From NCBI GenBank assembly GCA_017513625.1, contig JAFXEW010000070.1, forward strand, positions 1-57,258: a stretch of DNA of 57,258 nucleotides, given 5' to 3'. The DNA is from Lachnospiraceae bacterium. GTDB taxonomy: Bacteria > Bacillota > Clostridia > Lachnospirales > Lachnospiraceae. Shown here piece by piece: positions 47,897 to 57,258 of the stretch (position 1 is its first letter; each line of letters starts with the position of its first letter). Position numbers and translations under genes: made by a program. Below the pieces are notes generated by a model. That model did no database searches. It was not told the origin of the DNA and worked only from the letters and a program-made list of their open reading frames with translations.

Positions 47897-49024
47897 ATGA
47901 TTAATTTTAATGTACCTCCCTATGTGGAAAACGCAATGACCTATATCGGGGAATGTGTAAAAAATCAAAAAATATGCGGTGACGGAAGCTACACCAAAAA
48001 GTGTAACGAATGGATTGAGGAAAGGACCGGAACGGCCAAGTGCCTGCTGACCACCTCCTGTACCCATGCAACGGAGATGGCAGCTCTGTTGGCAGATATC
48101 AAGCCCGGAGACGAGGTGATAATGCCTGCTTATACCTTTGTGTCCACGGCGGATGCATTTGTACTGCGCGGTGCGGTTCCTGTGTTTGTGGATATCCGTC
48201 CGGATACCATGAATATAGACGAAACATTGATAGAAGCAGCGATTACGGAAAAGACCAAGGCTATCGTTCCCGTTCATTATGCAGGAGTGTCCTGTGAGAT
48301 GGATGTGATTATGGATATTGCCCGCAGACATCATCTGATTGTGATAGAGGATGCGGCCCAGGGTATCATGTCCACCTATAAAGGGAAGGCACTGGGTACC
48401 ATCGGTGATTACGGTTGTTTCAGCTTTCATGAGACCAAGAATTACAGCATGGGAGAAGGCGGCGCACTGCTGATTCAGGATCCTGCGCATATTGAAGCGG
48501 CGGAAATCATCCGTGAAAAGGGAACCAACCGCAGTAAATTTTTCAGAGGTCAGGTGGATAAATACACCTGGGTGAATTTCGGCTCCTCCTATCTGCCCAG
48601 TGATATGAATGCGGCTTATCTGTATGCCCAGCTGGAAAAGGCTGAGGAGATTAATGAAGCCAGATTAGCCTGCTACAACAGATATTATGAGAACTTAAAG
48701 GAACTTGCAGACAAAGGACTGATAGAGCTTCCTGTGGTGCCTGAGGGCTGTGTGCACAATGCCCACATGTTCTTTGTAAAGGCGAAAGATATAGAAGAAA
48801 GAACGGCACTAATCAGTTATATAAAAGAGAATGGGGTGATGGCGGTATTTCATTACATTCCTCTTCATACAGCACCTGCAGGTCTTAAATTCGGACGTTT
48901 CCATGGGGAAGACAAATATACCACCAAGGAAAGTGAAAGGTTATTACGTTTACCCATGTATTATGGTCTGACATTGGAGCAGGTGGATAAGATCAGCGGT
49001 CTGGTGAAAAGCTTTTATGCGTAG
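47897..49024 (+). CDS. wecE: dTDP-4-amino-4,6-dideoxy-D-galactose transaminase
   Basis: A 375-residue PLP aminotransferase that makes dTDP-Fuc4N from dTDP-4-keto-6-deoxyglucose. The sequence is close to WecE/RffA: CGDGSYTKKCNEWIEE, LLTTSCTHATEMAALL (about 50), MPAYTFVSTADAFVLRGAVPVFVDIRPD (about 75), VHYAGVSCEMD, EDAAQG, and SFHETKNYSMGEGGAL with the PLP lysine (about 180). TNRSKFFRGQVDKYTW and GSSYLPSDMNAAYL are also typical. The dTDP-glucose genes rmlA and rmlB are not in the window, so the substrate must come from elsewhere. It follows the GtrB-like gene by 23 bp. Confidence 0.9.
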   Translation: MINFNVPPYVENAMTYIGECVKNQKICGDGSYTKKCNEWIEERTGTAKCLLTTSCTHATEMAALLADIKPGDEVIMPAYTFVSTADAFVLRGAVPVFVDIRPDTMNIDETLIEAAITEKTKAIVPVHYAGVSCEMDVIMDIARRHHLIVIEDAAQGIMSTYKGKALGTIGDYGCFSFHETKNYSMGEGGALLIQDPAHIEAAEIIREKGTNRSKFFRGQVDKYTWVNFGSSYLPSDMNAAYLYAQLEKAEEINEARLACYNRYYENLKELADKGLIELPVVPEGCVHNAHMFFVKAKDIEERTALISYIKENGVMAVFHYIPLHTAPAGLKFGRFHGEDKYTTKESERLLRLPMYYGLTLEQVDKISGLVKSFYA

Positions 49025-49062
49025 AAGCAAAGGACAGACCAGGACGAATGGAGCATAGCTAT

Positions 49063-50304
49063 ATGCAAAATATTTGGAAGCATATCTCGCAGGTACTGTA
49101 TAGGGTTCTGCTAATGGGAATCCTTCTACAGATTGTTTTGGGACTGTGTTGGGGACTTGTGGGATTAATCAATAGCGGATGGTATAGTGTGATTTATATA
49201 TTACAGCTGGCGGCAACTTTTGCCGGCGGCTGTATGTTGTTGTCCGGATGCGGCATCAGCAGCAGACTGCAGAAGATAACGGGTGCGGGATGGCTTATGA
49301 CCTCGCCTGTGATATTGCAAAGTCATGTGGCGGCGGACGGGATTGCACCGGCCGTAGCCTTGCTTATGTTTGAGGCTGCTTTTTGCATCCGTTTTTTCAA
49401 AAAGGAAAATGCGGGCTGGAAGGATATGATATTGCCTTTGGCATTTTGGCTCGTCAGCGGGATTTTCAGACCGGAATATTTGTTGTTTGGGCTGGTACCC
49501 GTGCTTGCGGTAATGCTGAGGTATCTGTGGATATGCCAGAATAAGGCGGCTAAAACAGGGACACTGGGAGTAGTAGCATTGCTGATTCTGTTTTCTGCAC
49601 TCGAAGTAACCGGAGCGGTGGAAGCCAAAACGGATATGACCTTCAGGGAAGCGCTTGTGACCAGATGTGTATGGAGCAGTATTCCTCATGTATATGACAG
49701 CTGGCCGGCGGAGATTAGAGAGGTTCTCCCCAAGACTATGGCCATGGAGGCTTATTACAGGCCGGAACAGTCGGAAGAAGTGTTTCTGGAAGGATTTCGC
49801 AGCTTGCCGAAGGATGAACAGACAGCCTGTTTTAAAATCATGACAGAGAGCTCTCTGGCCTGCAGAAAGGGCGCTGTATTCAAGGAGACAGCATATGATC
49901 TGCTGGGATACGTAATTCCCGGAATTATAGTAAATATGCAACTGGGCGGAAAAGGATATTTTTCCGCGACGGCCGTTAATTATCAGGAATGGATGGATGG
50001 CAGGGAAGTCTTTGCAGGATTTTATATGACCTTTTACGGATATTGGTTTGTGATATCCGGTGTGATATTGCTGTGCCTCTTAATCGGAAATAAAAATGCC
50101 CGGAAAGAAGAGGGAAAACAAAAGGTGGAAACACTGCACCTGTGGATATGCGTGTGTGCAATTCTAATGGCTATTTCACAGGCCGGTTATTATACGCTGT
50201 ACATGGTTGGAAGGTATGATTACAGATTGGCCACCTGTGCGGCTTTGATGTGGGGATTGGTAACCCTTTTGGTGATGAATGATAGGAAAGGTCCGGTTGA
50301 GTAA
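49063..50304 (+). CDS. Polytopic membrane protein of unknown function
   Basis: A protein of about 413 residues with about nine membrane segments and one larger outside loop (about 190-300) that contains several cysteines and many charged residues. I do not recognise the family; the acidic loop of GT-C enzymes is not obvious. The start could be ATG 49063 (GGAGC 8 bases upstream) or 49048. It ends immediately before the ATG of the DUF6077-like gene, so the three genes 49063-52129 are one transcription unit. Confidence 0.65.
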   Translation: MQNIWKHISQVLYRVLLMGILLQIVLGLCWGLVGLINSGWYSVIYILQLAATFAGGCMLLSGCGISSRLQKITGAGWLMTSPVILQSHVAADGIAPAVALLMFEAAFCIRFFKKENAGWKDMILPLAFWLVSGIFRPEYLLFGLVPVLAVMLRYLWICQNKAAKTGTLGVVALLILFSALEVTGAVEAKTDMTFREALVTRCVWSSIPHVYDSWPAEIREVLPKTMAMEAYYRPEQSEEVFLEGFRSLPKDEQTACFKIMTESSLACRKGAVFKETAYDLLGYVIPGIIVNMQLGGKGYFSATAVNYQEWMDGREVFAGFYMTFYGYWFVISGVILLCLLIGNKNARKEEGKQKVETLHLWICVCAILMAISQAGYYTLYMVGRYDYRLATCAALMWGLVTLLVMNDRKGPVE

Positions 50305-51360
50305 ATGACAGTTGTGTCAATTCTTTTGTTTGCCCTGTGGCAATTCCTGATACCGGTAGCGGTAGGGACTCTTTTTGCAAAAGTAAACAGAAGCAGGTTG
50401 TTTGGATGGGTCTGTGGTCAGATGGTTATCTGGGCAGGCTTTCAGGTGCTGGCAACAGGCTTTATTGTGATGGGACAATCTTTTTCCTATGTGGTGTACG
50501 CTACGGTGAGTTATGTGATGGTGCTGCTTACGACTGCTGTGATATACGGTATCAAAAGAGGCAGAGCATTACGGGAAAACACTGCCGCATGGCAGGTGCC
50601 TGCGGATGCACGCGGACGCATGGTGGTGCTGGGGATACTGGCGGGAGCACTGCTTTTGTTCCAGCTGATTATGACTGTTTGCATGGCTTACGAAGAGGGG
50701 GACGATGCGTACTATCTGGCGCTGAGTACCACTACGGCCAATGACAATACCATGTACTATAAAAATGCATATACAGGATACTATACGGAATTAGACATAC
50801 GTCACGGTCTTGCACCCTTTCCCATGTGGATTGCTTTTTTGAGTAGAATGACCGGAATGGTGCCCATTACCATGGCCCAGGCGGTACTTCCCATAGGACT
50901 TATTTTGATGGCCTACGGTATTTATTATTTGTTAGGACAGAGATTGTTTGCAGGGCAGAAGGAAAAGGCGCTGGTTTTTCTGTGTTTGACAGAGCTGCTG
51001 GTTATCTGCGGCGGCTATTCCCTGTATTCCGCTGAGAATTTTCTGCTGGTGCGCATTAGTCAGGGTAAGGCGGTACTGGCCAATATGATATTACCTTTAA
51101 TGGTGTATTTATATCTGCTACTTCTGGAACGGCTGCAGGAGGAACGAAGTATTCCCAAGAGATATTGGATCCTGCTTGGCACAGTGACTTTGTCAGGATG
51201 TCTTTGCAGTACCCAGGGAGGACTCATCGTATGCCTGTCCCTGGCATTGATGGGTATATGCGTAGCGGTAGGTTACAAGAAGTGGAAGGTTCTGATTCCA
51301 CTGGGGTTGGCAGGATGTTTTCCGGTGGTGTATATGTTGCTTTATTTGATTATGGGTTAA
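50305..51360 (+). CDS. DUF6077-like membrane protein, first half of a split GT-C-type pair (copy 2)
   Basis: A 351-residue protein with about nine membrane segments. After the fourth, the outside loop is EEGDDAYYLALSTTTANDNTMYYKNAYTG, the acidic loop expected of a GT-C-type enzyme. It is paralogous to the 19593 protein: both share the loop, the following YYLLGxRLF segment and the order of membrane helices. The ATG immediately follows the previous stop codon. The ORF ends in a membrane helix and the next ORF, in another frame, continues the architecture after 16 bp with its own ribosome binding site. Confidence 0.78.
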   Translation: MTVVSILLFALWQFLIPVAVGTLFAKVNRSRLFGWVCGQMVIWAGFQVLATGFIVMGQSFSYVVYATVSYVMVLLTTAVIYGIKRGRALRENTAAWQVPADARGRMVVLGILAGALLLFQLIMTVCMAYEEGDDAYYLALSTTTANDNTMYYKNAYTGYYTELDIRHGLAPFPMWIAFLSRMTGMVPITMAQAVLPIGLILMAYGIYYLLGQRLFAGQKEKALVFLCLTELLVICGGYSLYSAENFLLVRISQGKAVLANMILPLMVYLYLLLLERLQEERSIPKRYWILLGTVTLSGCLCSTQGGLIVCLSLALMGICVAVGYKKWKVLIPLGLAGCFPVVYMLLYLIMG

Positions 51361-51376
51361 AGGGGAGGTAACAGAT

Positions 51377-52129
51377 ATGCGGACGGAATATATGGATATT
51401 TTTCAAAAATATATGGGTAGCGGCCTGATAGTGATTTTGTTTCTGGCGGCCCTTGTTTATCTTTTCTTTACGGAAAAAAGAAAACCGGTGCGGATTCTCT
51501 TGATTTATATACCGGCACTGGTGCTTCTGGTGTACTTTAATCCCTTGTTTTACGGTATTTTCTATCGGGTGGCGGGGAGTGAGATTTATTTCAGGATTTT
51601 GTGGCTACTGCCGGTGGTGCCTGTGCTGGCATATACGGGTGTGACCATCTATGATAAGGCAAGAGACAGAGCCAAATTGCCGGTTCTGGCGGCATGTATG
51701 GCGGTGATTCTCCTTTGCGGCAAAACGGTATATGCGAACCCTTTATTCACACCGGCGCAGAATCTCTACCATGTGCCGGATTATGTGGTACATGTGTGTG
51801 ATGCCATTGAGGTGGAAGGGCGTGAAGTCAAGGCGGTATTTCCCAAGGAATTCCTGCTGTATGTACGCCAGTATTCACCGGTGGTGTGTATGCCCTACGG
51901 AAGGGACGGTATTATTTATCAGGGAAATCCCTTTTACAATCTGATGGAAAGTGAAACAATTGATGCGGCACTTTTGGCAGAATATGCAAAAGGGACACAG
52001 TGCCATTATATCGTGCTGCAGGAAGAAAAAGCCCTGGAGGGTGACCTGGCTGATTATGATTACAAAGTGTTTGGCCGGATGGACGGTTATGTGATTTATG
52101 AGGATTTGACTATTTATAAAGGGTTGTAA
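51377..52129 (+). CDS. Second half of the split GT-C-type pair (copy 2), membrane plus extracellular domain
   Basis: A 250-residue protein with about four membrane segments (residues 15-125) and a soluble outside domain. Its start (GSGLIVILFLAALVYLFF) matches the start of the 20594 protein, and the soluble part has the same order of motifs: MPYGRDGIIYQGNPF, CHYIVLQ and GYVIYED. A GGGGAGG site is 8 bases from the ATG. It is the last gene of the glycan cluster; a 348-base regulatory gap follows. Confidence 0.75.
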   Translation: MRTEYMDIFQKYMGSGLIVILFLAALVYLFFTEKRKPVRILLIYIPALVLLVYFNPLFYGIFYRVAGSEIYFRILWLLPVVPVLAYTGVTIYDKARDRAKLPVLAACMAVILLCGKTVYANPLFTPAQNLYHVPDYVVHVCDAIEVEGREVKAVFPKEFLLYVRQYSPVVCMPYGRDGIIYQGNPFYNLMESETIDAALLAEYAKGTQCHYIVLQEEKALEGDLADYDYKVFGRMDGYVIYEDLTIYKGL

Positions 52130-52224: not shown

Positions 52225-52253
52225 TTGCATTATGTCCATGTTTGTTATATATT
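52225..52253 (+). promoter_or_regulatory. Promoter of the riboswitch-controlled operon
   Basis: TTGCAT (52225-52230), 17-base spacer, TATATT (52248-52253). The predicted start of transcription near 52260 falls exactly at the beginning of the aptamer core. Confidence 0.7.
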
Positions 52254-52255
52254 GT

Positions 52256-52333
52256 TAAATTGGGCAAACATTTAGTGATGAATGGACGCAAAGCATGAAG
52301 TCATAAGATGATTATGATGGTTCGGCTGCATAA
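52256..52333 (+). promoter_or_regulatory. c-di-GMP class I (GEMM-I) riboswitch
   Basis: The conserved core is present: GGGCAAAC (52262-52269), stem P2 (CATTTA 52269-52274 with TGAATG 52279-52284) capped by a GTGA tetraloop, the diagnostic GGACGCAAAGC (52284-52294), stem P3 (TCATAA 52301-52306 with TTATGA 52312-52317), and the 3' element GGCTGC (52324-52329). A GNRA loop on P2 is the known tertiary contact of this class. P1 is not obvious. The element lies directly after a promoter and upstream of a secreted-protein operon, as is common for this riboswitch in Clostridia. Confidence 0.85.
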
Positions 52334-52362
52334 ACTACGCTGGTAGTGTATGCAGTCTTTTT
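52324..52362 (+). terminator. Riboswitch expression-platform terminator
   Basis: GGCTGCATAAACTAC (52324-52338) pairs with 52343-52357 (one G-T pair and one mismatch) around a 4-base loop, then five T. Its left arm contains the GGCTGC element that the aptamer needs, so folding of the aptamer and of the terminator should exclude each other. This predicts that c-di-GMP turns expression on. Confidence 0.75.
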
Positions 52363-52477
52363 ATTTTCAACAAAATAAATGGGGAAATACATTGTCAGGT
52401 GCCTGGGGAGCCGCATGACAGATGAACAATGACAGAGGAAAATTTTATATATATCATCAAATTGAGGAGGAAACCAT

Positions 52478-53008
52478 ATGAAGAGATGGAGCAGAATGCT
52501 ACTGATAATAGTAGCAGTATGCATTTTAAACGTAAACAACGTTATCTCTGTACAGGCAGAAGAATACCTGTATGACGAATTGAACCGGGTGACTAAGGTC
52601 ACTTACGAAGACGGCAGTTGGATGAAATATACCTATGATGCCAACGGAAATATTACGGACGTGGAGGTCTATAATGCCACGCCGGGACCGTCTGATGAAA
52701 GTACGGAATCTACGGAAGAGTCCGGAGCGGACGAAAGCAGCGAGGCTACAGGAGAGACCGAAACGGATGAAAGCAGCGAGGCTATAGGAGAGGCCGGAAC
52801 GGATGAAAGCAGCGAGGCTACAGGGGAGACCGGAACGGATGAAAGTACCGAGGCTACAGGGGAGACCGGAACGGATGAAAGTACCGAGGCGACAGATGGC
52901 ACGGATACACCTGAACAGGAGGAATCTCCTATAGTGACGGTGATAAAGGACGTGGTAGAAGTGATACGTACCCTTGTGGACGTTATAAAAAATTGGCTGG
53001 GTATATAG
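52478..53008 (+). CDS. Small secreted protein with one YD/RHS-type motif and acidic 12-residue repeats
   Basis: A 176-residue protein. A signal peptide (residues 1-27, ending VQA-EE) is followed by YLYDELNRVTKVTYEDGSWMK and YTYDANGNI, which is one unit of the YD repeat found in RHS proteins. Then come about four and a half acidic repeats (SSEATGETGTDE type, residues about 86-143) and a hydrophobic, amphipathic C-terminus (VIKDVVEVIRTLVDVIKNWLGI). There is no sortase motif. A GAGGAGG site precedes the ATG. It is the first gene behind the c-di-GMP riboswitch and lies 53 bp before the giant repeat protein. Its role is unknown. Confidence 0.8.
   Translation: MKRWSRMLLIIVAVCILNVNNVISVQAEEYLYDELNRVTKVTYEDGSWMKYTYDANGNITDVEVYNATPGPSDESTESTEESGADESSEATGETETDESSEAIGEAGTDESSEATGETGTDESTEATGETGTDESTEATDGTDTPEQEESPIVTVIKDVVEVIRTLVDVIKNWLGI
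52733..52906 (+). repeat. 36-bp in-frame tandem repeat
   Basis: Four 36-bp units (52733, 52769, 52805, 52841) and a shortened fifth (52877-52906). Each encodes 12 residues. Units 3 and 4 are almost identical, suggesting recent expansion. There are no spacers. Confidence 0.85.
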
Positions 53009-53061
53009 TATACAAGTATATTGTTGTAAGGGTGTAAACAAGAGGGAATAGGTAAGGAGAA

Positions 53062-56000
53062 ATGCTAAAGATGCGTAGAAAGATAGCAAGAATCAAACAG
53101 ATAATAGCAATGTTTTTGATAGTGGCATTACTTCCGCTGGAGAGCTTGGAAGGATGCTTTGCGGAAAGAGTATATGCGGCTACGAATACTGTGACTAATG
53201 TAACAGAAAATGTGGAGAGCTCAGTTGCGGAAAATGAGCAGACGGAAAATAGTGGTGCATCAGAAGAAGATGAATACAGTGCACAGAAAAACTCTGAGTC
53301 AGAGGAATTGGAGAGTGAGAGTGACTCGTTAGAAGAAAATACAGAAAATATTGAGGATACGTCTGCTGATCAGATGGACAGTGTTTCTGCAGAAGAGTCT
53401 TCAGTGATAGAAGAGACAGAAGATTCAGAAGAAATATCCGAGGCAACAGAAGAAATACAGGAATCAGAAGAAGAGTCTGTATTAGAAAATTTATTAATTA
53501 CAGAGAATTATACACTTACAGGTGATCTGGAAGTTGCTGATATGCAGATTTCCGGGGGCACCTTTGATTTGAATGGATATAGATTGATTGTACACGGTGA
53601 ATTAGTGCAGTCGGCAGGTGTGATGGAGATAAACGGTGGTAGCCTGATTGTAGAGGGTGACTATCGCATCCAGACTCGAAACGGCGAAGAGGGTGCTTAT
53701 ACCTATGGAAAAAGCAGTGGCCAGCTCTGGATGGGAAATAAAGCAGATTATGTGCATGTGTATGGTGATGTAGTCAACGATTCAGAATATTCGAGCCCCT
53801 TACAATATGGCATTTTTGAGATTGATGGAAACTTAACGTCTACTCAAGGAATCATCTGTTCTGAGAGTCATAAGTTTGTATTTTCCGGAGATGCTAGACA
53901 GATTATTGATATTTCTGAAAGTGAATTTTTCGGAATAATAGAATTAAGAAATCAAAGCGAAGAGGGAATCTATTCAGCATATCCCTTTGCAAAGCGTGCT
54001 CTGATTCGAAACGGATGTAAGATTGATTATGCAGGTGTAAAAGGAACATACGGCTGGGTATTAGAAGAAGATACAGTATATGAAGGAGATTTGGTATTAA
54101 TTGACGATACCCTGGATTTAAACGGTCATAGTCTGACCGTAACCGGAGATTTGATACAGTTGTCCGGAATTGTAAATGTACACAGCGGAAGCCTGACAGT
54201 AGAGGGGGATTATCGTATTCAGGTTAGAACAGGTAAAGAAGGAGCCTATTCGTACAGTGCAAGTGCCGGCCTGCTTTATATGACCAATAAGAATGATTAT
54301 GTGTTAGTAAAAAGGAACTTTATATTCGAGGATATAGGTTGGTTTTCCAGTGAGTTAAGCACAGGAATCCTAGAAGTGCAGGGAGATGTGAATATAATAG
54401 AATCCAACCGATCTTGCGGATTAAGGTTAAAAGGAAATCATACCCTACTGTTAAGCGGTCAAGATGAACAGACTATTGGGGGAAATGGTGTCTTAGAGAT
54501 TCAGAACATAGAGATTACCAATGAGAGTGAAGGGGGGGTAATATTTTCTGATAAGCCTTATGTAGCAGGACGTATAAAGGATCAAGGCAAAAAGGTGAGC
54601 GGATATATATCAATCGGTTCGAGTACTACCTTTGAGCAAGGATACTTCGGGGGAAGCATATATATAGGCAAAAAAATAGACTGGGACGATGTTGTATGCA
54701 TAGGAGGGGATGTAGAAATTGTTTCAAATACGACTATATCTGGAAGTATTATAGTAAAGGGAAGTCTGAACCATACGAGTGGAGAGCTGATTCTAAACAG
54801 TGGAATCTTGGAGATATTAGGTAATTACACGGCTGAATATGCGTATAGAGGCACCAATAGTATATATATGACTCACGAGGAAGACTATGTTCATGTACAT
54901 GGAGATGTGGAGTACAGCCCTCATTCATCAGGGACGTTAAGTGCAGGCACATTTGAGATTGGCGGTAACTTAACTTCCACTCAGGGGATACAAGCAAGTG
55001 GTAGTCATAAGTTTCTGTTCTCCGGTAATTCACTACAAACCATAGATATATCGATTGATGCAATTTTTGCTACGCTGGAGCTTCAAAATTATAGTGAAGA
55101 AGGGATTAATCTTGTCCGTTTCTTTCGGATAAATGCGTTGATTCATAATAATTGTACATTGACCAGCGGAGAGCAGAAATTTTGGTACGGTTGGATATTA
55201 GAAGAAGATACGGTACATGAAGGAGATATGGTATTAATAGGGGATACCTTGGATTTAAATGGTTATAGTCTAACTGTAACAGGTGATTTAGTACAGCTTT
55301 CGGGTATTGTAAAAGTAAATGGTGGAAGTCTGATCGTAGAGAAAAATTACCGAATTCAAACTAGAAATGGTAAAGAGGGATGCTATACTTATAATGCGAG
55401 TTGTGGACAGCTTCAGATGACAAATGAAGATGATTATGTGTTGGTAAAGGGAAGTTTTATATCAGAAACATCAGCTAACACAATCGGTTATCTGACAGCA
55501 GGCATCCTGGAAGTAAAGAGTAATGTATACGTAAGTAACAGCTATTCGAACGCAAGCTTTGTGGGAATGGAAAGTCATACGCTGTTATTGAGCGGAGAGA
55601 ACAGACAGAGCATCTATTCCGATATCGTTGGAATCAGTCGCATGCGTCTTCAGAACTTGGAGATTACGAATGAGAGCGAAGAAGGAGTGGTAATTAGTAA
55701 CAAACCTTATGTGTCTGGTCATGTAAAGGATTATGGAAACAGAATAAGCGGCTACATAGCCATCGGAACTGATACTACCTTTGAGGAAGGATACTTCGGA
55801 GGAAGCATATATATCAACGAGGATGTGACTCTGGATGATGTGCTAACTATAGGTGGAGATGTGTATATGACACATAACGTTACCATATCCGGAAGCATAC
55901 ATGTAAAAGGAAATTTCGAACAGCATGGAAGCTGGATAAATTCAAACTTATGTATGGATAAGGGGAGGCTGGAAATAGATGGTAATTATTATATAGCTAA

Positions 56001-57258
56001 CGAAAGTTATACAAGAGTATATATGACCCATGTAGAAGACCATATCCATGTGCACGGAAATGTAACATATGAGCCCTATAGTAGTGGAAGCTTGAGTGCT
56101 GGAACATTTGAAATAGGAGGAGCCCTAAGTTCAAGCGGAAACATGCATGCTACGGGTTCTCATAAATTCGTTTTCTCAGGTGATAGCAAGCAGGTTATCA
56201 ATATAACTACGGATGAATACTTCGCAACCGTAGAACTTCGTAATTACAGTGAAGAGGGAGTATATTCACCCATTACTTTTAAGAAGAGTACCCTTATCCG
56301 AAATGGCTGTCGTCTGACCTACGGAGACTTAGAAGGTGAATATGGTTGGACTTTAGAAGAAGATACAGTCTATGAAGGAGATATGGTATTAATTGAAGAC
56401 ACCCTTGACCTAAATGGCCATAGTCTGACTGTAACCGGAGACCTGGTACAGCTTTCCGGTATTGTAAAGGTAAACGGAGGAAGTCTGACGGTAGAAGGTG
56501 ACTATCGTATCCAAACCAGGAGCGGCGCAGACGGTTCCTACACCTATGGTGAAAGCAGCGGTCAGTTGCAGATGATAGATGAGGATGATTATGTACTGGT
56601 AAAAGGAAGCTTTATCTCCGGTACATCAGCCAATGCAACAGGTTATCTGACAGCGGGTATCCTGGAAGTAAGGGGAGATGTAAATGTAAGCAGCAGTTAT
56701 TCATCCACAGGTTTTGTGGGAACAGGAAGCCATACGCTGTTATTAAGCGGAGTGGCAAAGCAGACCTTCAGCTTCGGTACCTTTGGAAGCGACAGCATGC
56801 GTCTGCAGAATCTGGAGATTACCAATGAAAGTGAAGACGGAGTGGTATTCAGCAGTAAGCCCTGTGTATTCGGCCATGTAAAGGATCATGGAAATAAAGT
56901 AAGCGGTCTGATAGCCATCGGAACCGATACCACCTTTGAGGAAGGATACTTCGGAGGGGGTATATATATCAGCCAGGGAGCGACACTGGATGATGTATTA
57001 ATCATAGGAGGAGATCTGGAGCTTCGAGGTGGAACCACAACAGTAACAGGAAGCATAAAGGTGGAAGGTAACTGTATCCACAGCGGAGATACTTACCTTA
57101 CCATGAATAAGGGAAGCCTGGAGGTGCGGGGTAATTATACAGTAGCATATCAGAGGGATTATTATAATTATATAAGCATGACCCATACGGAGGATTATAT
57201 CCACGTGCACGGAGATGTGGTATACAGCCCATGTTCATCAGGAACCTTAAGTGCGGGA
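53062..57258 (+). CDS. Giant secreted repeat protein, probable beta-solenoid adhesin (3' end outside window)
   Basis: The frame is open from ATG 53062 to the last base, 1399 codons, without a stop. AAGGAG lies just before the ATG. A signal peptide (basic start, hydrophobic core IIAMFLIVALLPLE, likely cleavage after VYA near residue 39) is followed by a Glu/Ser-rich acidic stretch (about 45-145). The rest is made of repeats. A unit of about 380 residues starts with LEEDTVYEGD at residues 334, 713 and 1098. It contains two related halves with GDLVQLSGIVKVNGGSL, EGDYRIQ and short Gly-Asn turns every 8-12 residues, as in beta-solenoids. No sortase or anchoring signal is visible yet. Cysteines are few. 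It shares the c-di-GMP controlled transcript with the upstream YD-motif gene. Confidence 0.85.
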   Translation, partial: MLKMRRKIARIKQIIAMFLIVALLPLESLEGCFAERVYAATNTVTNVTENVESSVAENEQTENSGASEEDEYSAQKNSESEELESESDSLEENTENIEDTSADQMDSVSAEESSVIEETEDSEEISEATEEIQESEEESVLENLLITENYTLTGDLEVADMQISGGTFDLNGYRLIVHGELVQSAGVMEINGGSLIVEGDYRIQTRNGEEGAYTYGKSSGQLWMGNKADYVHVYGDVVNDSEYSSPLQYGIFEIDGNLTSTQGIICSESHKFVFSGDARQIIDISESEFFGIIELRNQSEEGIYSAYPFAKRALIRNGCKIDYAGVKGTYGWVLEEDTVYEGDLVLIDDTLDLNGHSLTVTGDLIQLSGIVNVHSGSLTVEGDYRIQVRTGKEGAYSYSASAGLLYMTNKNDYVLVKRNFIFEDIGWFSSELSTGILEVQGDVNIIESNRSCGLRLKGNHTLLLSGQDEQTIGGNGVLEIQNIEITNESEGGVIFSDKPYVAGRIKDQGKKVSGYISIGSSTTFEQGYFGGSIYIGKKIDWDDVVCIGGDVEIVSNTTISGSIIVKGSLNHTSGELILNSGILEILGNYTAEYAYRGTNSIYMTHEEDYVHVHGDVEYSPHSSGTLSAGTFEIGGNLTSTQGIQASGSHKFLFSGNSLQTIDISIDAIFATLELQNYSEEGINLVRFFRINALIHNNCTLTSGEQKFWYGWILEEDTVHEGDMVLIGDTLDLNGYSLTVTGDLVQLSGIVKVNGGSLIVEKNYRIQTRNGKEGCYTYNASCGQLQMTNEDDYVLVKGSFISETSANTIGYLTAGILEVKSNVYVSNSYSNASFVGMESHTLLLSGENRQSIYSDIVGISRMRLQNLEITNESEEGVVISNKPYVSGHVKDYGNRISGYIAIGTDTTFEEGYFGGSIYINEDVTLDDVLTIGGDVYMTHNVTISGSIHVKGNFEQHGSWINSNLCMDKGRLEIDGNYYIANESYTRVYMTHVEDHIHVHGNVTYEPYSSGSLSAGTFEIGGALSSSGNMHATGSHKFVFSGDSKQVINITTDEYFATVELRNYSEEGVYSPITFKKSTLIRNGCRLTYGDLEGEYGWTLEEDTVYEGDMVLIEDTLDLNGHSLTVTGDLVQLSGIVKVNGGSLTVEGDYRIQTRSGADGSYTYGESSGQLQMIDEDDYVLVKGSFISGTSANATGYLTAGILEVRGDVNVSSSYSSTGFVGTGSHTLLLSGVAKQTFSFGTFGSDSMRLQNLEITNESEDGVVFSSKPCVFGHVKDHGNKVSGLIAIGTDTTFEEGYFGGGIYISQGATLDDVLIIGGDLELRGGTTTVTGSIKVEGNCIHSGDTYLTMNKGSLEVRGNYTVAYQRDYYNYISMTHTEDYIHVHGDVVYSPCSSGTLSAG
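54061..57258 (+). repeat. Long tandem repeats of about 1.14-1.16 kb in the giant gene
   Basis: Unit starts (TTAGAAGAAGATA) are at 54061, 55198 and 56353, so the periods are 1137 and 1155 bases. A second landmark (GGATACTTCGG) at 54640, 55789 and 56944 gives 1149 and 1155. The third unit is cut by the window end. A shorter hybrid unit precedes them (about 53512-54060). Confidence 0.85.

Follow-up and report, generated by a model that had tools for sequence, protein, structure and literature searches.

This contig of a gut bacterium very probably carries a c-di-GMP-I riboswitch that turns transcription on, ahead of a small YD gene and a giant gene, with a ligand response predicted from the DNA. 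The window (the whole stretch of 57,258 nucleotides that was analysed) comprises all of contig C63 of genome G000, which is 81.8% complete. We infer the identity of the ligand, the dependence on it, the direction of control, the points at which transcription starts and stops, and the co-transcription of the giant gene from the evidence laid out below; feature coordinates are collected in Table 1.

Table 1. Predicted features of the switch region and of the two genes behind it, in window coordinates.
Feature	Coordinates	Strand	Evidence or detail
Candidate promoter, TTGCAT (52225-52230)-17-TATATT (52248-52253)	52225..52253	+	8/12 consensus
c-di-GMP-I (GEMM-I) aptamer, RF01051	52253..52333	+	53.0 bits (gathering 35), E 1.4e-7
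P2 hairpin, GUGA tetraloop at 52275-52278	52269..52284	+	52269-52274 pairs with 52279-52284
P3 helix	52292..52327	+	UCAU/AUGA continuous helix replaces the model's UAAG receptor
Intrinsic terminator	52324..52367	+	-20.2 kcal/mol, z -6.0; T run 52358-52367
RBS GAGGAGG of small gene	52464..52470	+	Sequence
Small gene, 176-aa protein	52478..53008	+	PF05593 30.1 bits (cut-off 22); TIGR01643 23.4 (15.8)
Giant ORF, 1399 codons, open at contig end	53062..57258	+	choice_anch_A 31.5 bits (cut-off 29)

The class of the RNA was established by a covariance search of the window, in which RF01051 was matched over the full model (1-87) and no other Rfam family scored above its cut-off anywhere in the window. 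The c-di-GMP class I switch, conserved core and GTGA-capped P2 that the sequence-only reading had described were all recovered. The junction is conserved, with GGCAAAC, the core GGACGCAAAGC (52284-52294), a G at position 20 and a C after the P3 base, and P2 is capped by a GNRA tetraloop, GUGA. P3 has no UAAG-type tetraloop receptor, which is deleted in the alignment and replaced by continuous helix; the RF01051 score does not need this receptor, and some GAAA-capped copies also lack the receptor string under a crude pattern. Because that string is crude, and because the tetraloop/receptor table counts some loci twice and includes chance hits, no ratio was drawn from it; one locus flagged as receptor-bearing by the string (L225) has a continuous helix by eye. 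With both the GAAA tetraloop and the UAAG receptor replaced, ligand affinity could differ. A G at the third tetraloop position is infrequent but known in the c-di-GMP-I class (PMC3764141, available part), and the GUGA loop itself is therefore not new. A P1 helix, which would be short if present, was absent from the predicted folds of the window RNA, and the aptamer fold alone was not unusually stable (z -1.4; 17 of 200 shuffles equally stable).

Behind the aptamer lies a strong intrinsic terminator, as well folded as which none of 200 shuffles was found. Its left arm, GGCTGCATA (52324-52332), begins within the aptamer 3' end, where it reuses GGCUGC (52324-52329), and pairs with TATGCAGTC (52349-52357); after one A/G mismatch there is an inner stem of ACTAC/GTAGT (5 bp), and TTTTTATTTT follows. 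A simple terminator scan misses this element because of the A/G mismatch, and a scan tolerating one mismatch finds it; the latter scan found no further terminator at 52368-52480. In minimum-energy folds of the growing transcript, which was advanced in steps of 2-4 bases, the aptamer was present until the RNA end reached 52355 and the full terminator was present at 52359. Formation of the terminator breaks only the three basal P3 pairs (52292-52294 with 52325-52327) and also takes the conserved GC after P3. The terminator and the complete aptamer are thus mutually exclusive, so ligand should prevent termination. The reuse of GGCTGC by the terminator, read earlier from the letters, accordingly holds on position, stability and folding, and we infer, as that reading had proposed, that ligand binding keeps GGCTGC from the terminator and turns the downstream genes on, given the covariance search, the folding, the 66 other RF01051 loci and the arrangement in G008 described below.

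The proposed sequence of events is as follows. RNA polymerase would start only a few bases from the core of the aptamer, which would leave no room for a long 5' P1 strand, and the nascent RNA would fold first as the aptamer. Once c-di-GMP is bound, the base of P3 and the GC next to it (52325-52329) would stay engaged and GGCUGC would be kept from the terminator, allowing read-through into the small YD protein gene and then into the putative giant RHS/YD surface protein gene. With no ligand, the 14-bp terminator would displace the C that presumably pairs with the ligand, along with the three pairs at the base of P3, and transcription would stop at about 52360-52366.

Copies of the aptamer with the same tetraloop were collected by a pattern search of 138 genomes of the genus, which yielded nine GUGA-capped copies in six genomes, the window included (G000, G008 with four, G045, G043, G210 and G217). 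An overlapping terminator was present in 9/9 of these (by reading, and by the scans for those scanned). All carry the continuous helix in place of the UAAG receptor; its 5' strand is always UCAU and its 3' strand is AUGA or GUGA. The junction letters are intact in all but the G045 copy, in which the A of GGAC is a G. The alignment held eight distinct aptamers, L226 being omitted as its aptamer letters are those of L222; 99.4% of cells were paired and slid versions reached at most 50.6%, with a consensus structure derived from the first row, which favours that structure. The covariation score was 0.203 versus 0.107 for shuffled alignments, with 0/500 as high, and four pairs were changed on both sides, a number reached by 67 of 500 shuffles; in P2, two of six pairs were changed on both sides among the eight homologues. 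The 397 family genomes outside the genus held three more GUGA hairpins (G138, G515 and G347); below each of them, by eye, the helix is continuous and includes a CU:AG step. CU:AG is the step that GUGA prefers. Pattern matches in G013, which lies inside a coding frame, and in G263 and G439, where the hairpin scan found no GUGA hairpin, were rejected. A search of the available literature found no report of a GUGA subtype in this genus, and the nine copies offer a natural set for studying how the tetraloop contact tunes ligand affinity. An ordinary FMN riboswitch (L178:1249-1417) lies near one of the G008 GUGA copies.

The promoter named in the sequence-only reading was found, though it is weak and falls under the scan threshold. 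Its end is separated by 9 bases from the GG of the aptamer core, as against 14-16 bases in the six further GUGA copies that have a comparable promoter. A TTGC hexamer, 17 bases and a -10-like hexamer were present in 7/9 GUGA copies including the window, six being identified by the scorer and L228 by eye (the scorer picked another hexamer pair there); L223 and L224 (G043 and G210), at which the site is ambiguous, lie outside this count. The usual -10-to-start spacing puts the start in the window at about 52259-52262. This predicted start agrees, to within a few bases, with the earlier proposal that transcription begins at the first base of the aptamer.

A second promoter-like site, ATGACA-17-TATCAT (10/12), lies downstream of the terminator at 52429-52457 on the + strand and could bypass the switch; four such sites were found in the region versus a shuffled mean of 1.8 (both strands), and chance is a fair explanation. 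This site, together with the altered receptor and tetraloop, bears on the possibility that the aptamer is decayed or insensitive, so that attenuation is constitutive or the operon is driven from the downstream promoter. A precedent for insensitivity is Bc1 of B. thuringiensis, which binds ligand with no effect on expression, there because of a second terminator (PMC11218506, available part). We consider such a reading unlikely for the window, where the scan to 52480 revealed no second terminator; moreover, the junction is intact in the nine GUGA copies save for the single A/G change in G045, their pairs covary, and the G008 5' UTR contains no copy of the downstream site by eye.

The overlap of aptamer and terminator was then compared across 67 RF01051 loci of the genus and family, which are mostly the best-scoring matches rather than all and which include neighbours in tandem runs. 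The terminator scan classed 19 as overlapping, 22 as separate, 3 as partial and 23 as having none. Among the 65 loci with enough downstream DNA, these 19 overlaps compare with a shuffled mean of 1.5 and maximum of 3 (20 rounds), and 18 of the 19 have at least nine pairs, against a shuffled mean of 0.25. Terminator arms were extracted automatically from 20 overlap loci (18 of the 19 scanned plus L223 and L225, L180 being left out for a doubtful six-pair overlap) and reduced to 14 distinct arm pairs, in which 138/140 positions pair. For the four columns outside the core, 54/56 were paired versus a shuffled mean of 36.2, with 0/5000 as high; in the six core columns 84/84 were paired, a result equalled by 266 of 5000 shuffles, as expected from the conserved letters. 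Within the genome of the window, seven RF01051 aptamers scored above the cut-off. In five of them (L003-L007) the terminator left arm is the aptamer's last GGYUGC, L001 has a separate terminator, and L002 is at a contig end. Downstream of the remaining four overlap switches in the genome are genes whose products look exported in three cases and cytoplasmic in one (by eye).

These comparisons bear on whether the element could instead be an OFF switch like Cd1 of C. difficile, in which ligand favours termination. The class I switches of C. difficile are OFF switches (PMC11477304, available part), and both logics occur within this aptamer family (PMC9262584, available part). In the window, however, 52324-52329 belongs to both the aptamer and the terminator; with no spacer between them and no other terminator to 52480, an OFF arrangement would be left without an antiterminator segment, which makes this logic less likely, and homologues preserve this overlap, with changes that compensate one another. 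OFF control is accordingly judged highly improbable.

Ligand choice was considered at the position homologous to G20 of Vc2, which we take to be the site that sets it. The window copy has a G there, and two other copies of its genome (L001 on C79 and L007 on C19) have an A. The genome encodes 10 GGDEF domains, eight of which have a GGDEF/GGEEF motif by eye. GHxxGS/T is the signature of hybrid cyclases, and it was found in none of the 10 domains, eight of which have GD at that site and two GN. A ligand of 3',3'-cGAMP in place of c-di-GMP has very little to recommend it on these two counts, even though riboswitches for cGAMP were initially annotated as switches for c-di-GMP (PMC9262584, available part) and two sister copies carry the A. 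A crystal structure of a G20A class I aptamer bound to cGAMP is mentioned in the available part of PMC6274999. Elsewhere, runs of three neighbouring c-di-GMP-I aptamers were observed at G018:C86:6478-6790, G025:C16:84543-84900 and G040:C81:3278-3590; among the seven members fetched, one per run has a G at position 20 and the rest an A.

The ON logic favoured for the window has precedents, all cited here from the available parts of the sources. In Bc3, Bc4 and Bc5 of B. thuringiensis CT-43, class I ON switches like that of the window, the terminator incorporates the C that binds the ligand, together with P1 and part of P3, and a surface-protein operon follows (PMC4759541); unlike the window, the three are in tandem, have a P1 stem and precede cspABCDE rather than YD/RHS genes. 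The pilM switch of Geobacter metallireducens belongs to the same RNA family and is likewise an ON switch with mutually exclusive aptamer and terminator, but its ligand is cGAMP, a 5' strand pairs with the aptamer-stabilizing strand, and the gene is pilus-related (PMC9262584). Vc2 needs P1 to bind, whereas Cd1, a class I aptamer, binds with no P1 helix detected (PMC9262584); Cd1 differs from the window in being an OFF switch with a separate antiterminator (PMC9262584, PMC11477304). Given Bc3-5 and pilM, the switching mechanism is already known and is ordinary for its class. The target operon is unusual for this riboswitch class: a literature search for c-di-GMP riboswitches with RHS/YD genes found none in the text available, where rhsD of E. 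coli, listed in a table, and the title of a cited work were the only mentions.

Both genes had been anticipated, as a small secreted YD-motif protein and a giant repeat protein, and both descriptions are supported. The small protein has one YD/RHS repeat (aa 32-60) and acidic S/T/E/D-rich repeats; read by eye, it also shows a signal peptide, an acidic linker and a C-terminal tail that is amphipathic. The giant frame runs to the contig end and contains four DLNG-type repeats; the portion before the contig end has no RHS_repeat match and no Y.YD motif. By homology, it is probably the N-terminal part of an RHS/YD giant, since RHS/YD repeats form the end of homologous giants. An RHS_repeat search of the whole genome returned nothing at E 0.001 and so located no YD array for the giant in this assembly; the one repeat in the small protein escaped this search as well. 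Translation of the giant could begin at ATG 53062 or at ATG 53071, the latter at a more usual distance from AAGGAG. Another contig, G000:C90:1-4276 (L162), holds a 1425-codon frame that is open at both ends and ends in fn3; stretches of it are up to 85% identical to the window giant, the two are not joined, and it may perhaps be a further part of that giant or of a paralogue.

The same arrangement occurs at a different place in G008, where an aptamer of 48.3 bits is followed by a 190-aa YD protein and a giant, and where the upstream gene differs from that of the window by eye. The G008 giant has at least 4049 residues to the contig end, an RHS_repeat score of 254 bits over 13 stretches, and DUF6531, fn3 and PKD domains. 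This homologue resembles known RHS/YD giants (PF05593, PF20148) in its 13 RHS_repeat stretches and DUF6531, whereas the window copy ends before any YD region. A small YD gene lies directly before a giant frame in G048, G187, G002, G021, G129, G069, G141, G113 and G165, a small gene precedes a YD frame ending at the contig end in G171, and G231 has an incomplete small gene and a giant. In all, 13 pairs of an exported-looking small YD protein and a giant were counted including the window (L135-L140, L156-L161 and window 52478-57258). Most giants end at a contig or fetch end, and the two followed as far as a stop codon are 3110 (G165) and 5135 (G129) residues long; the part of the G021 giant that was read has a single Y.YD, and in G069 a 342-aa protein carries the YD repeat at its C-terminus. 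By eye, a membrane-like helix closes the small proteins of G129 and G165, and several others finish in an amphipathic stretch.

The switch is present at two of the 12 assessable modules (G000 and G008), G231 lying outside this set as its upstream region is not assessable. Searches of the DNA upstream of the remaining ten, which covered 718-821 bases at nine of them and the whole of L160, gave no RF01051 match even at E values up to 5, and the idea that YD modules in general carry the switch was rejected. Conversely, a YD motif within up to 1.5 kb downstream was found at only two of the 67 RF01051 loci, L006 and L156. The closest homologues of the window giant are in G048 (without the switch) and G231 (not assessable), at 48-49% identity; that of G008, with the switch, is at 41%.

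A wider reading is offered tentatively: in this genus a GUGA-capped switch subtype may have been captured by a conserved two-gene surface module. The small protein would then consist of a single YD hairpin carried on an acidic linker, plus a tail that binds the membrane, and would act as a dedicated tether or assembly partner of a YD-shell giant; c-di-GMP would turn on both and so place an RHS-type machine in the sessile programme. If the regulation is as predicted, RHS/YD giant surface proteins would join the kinds of genes under c-di-GMP riboswitches, and the small YD protein would be pointed to as a conserved partner of these giants. Upstream of the switch, on the same strand at 47897-52129, are genes for a DegT/DnrJ/EryC1 aminotransferase and membrane-looking proteins (by eye), which are perhaps involved in surface polysaccharide synthesis.
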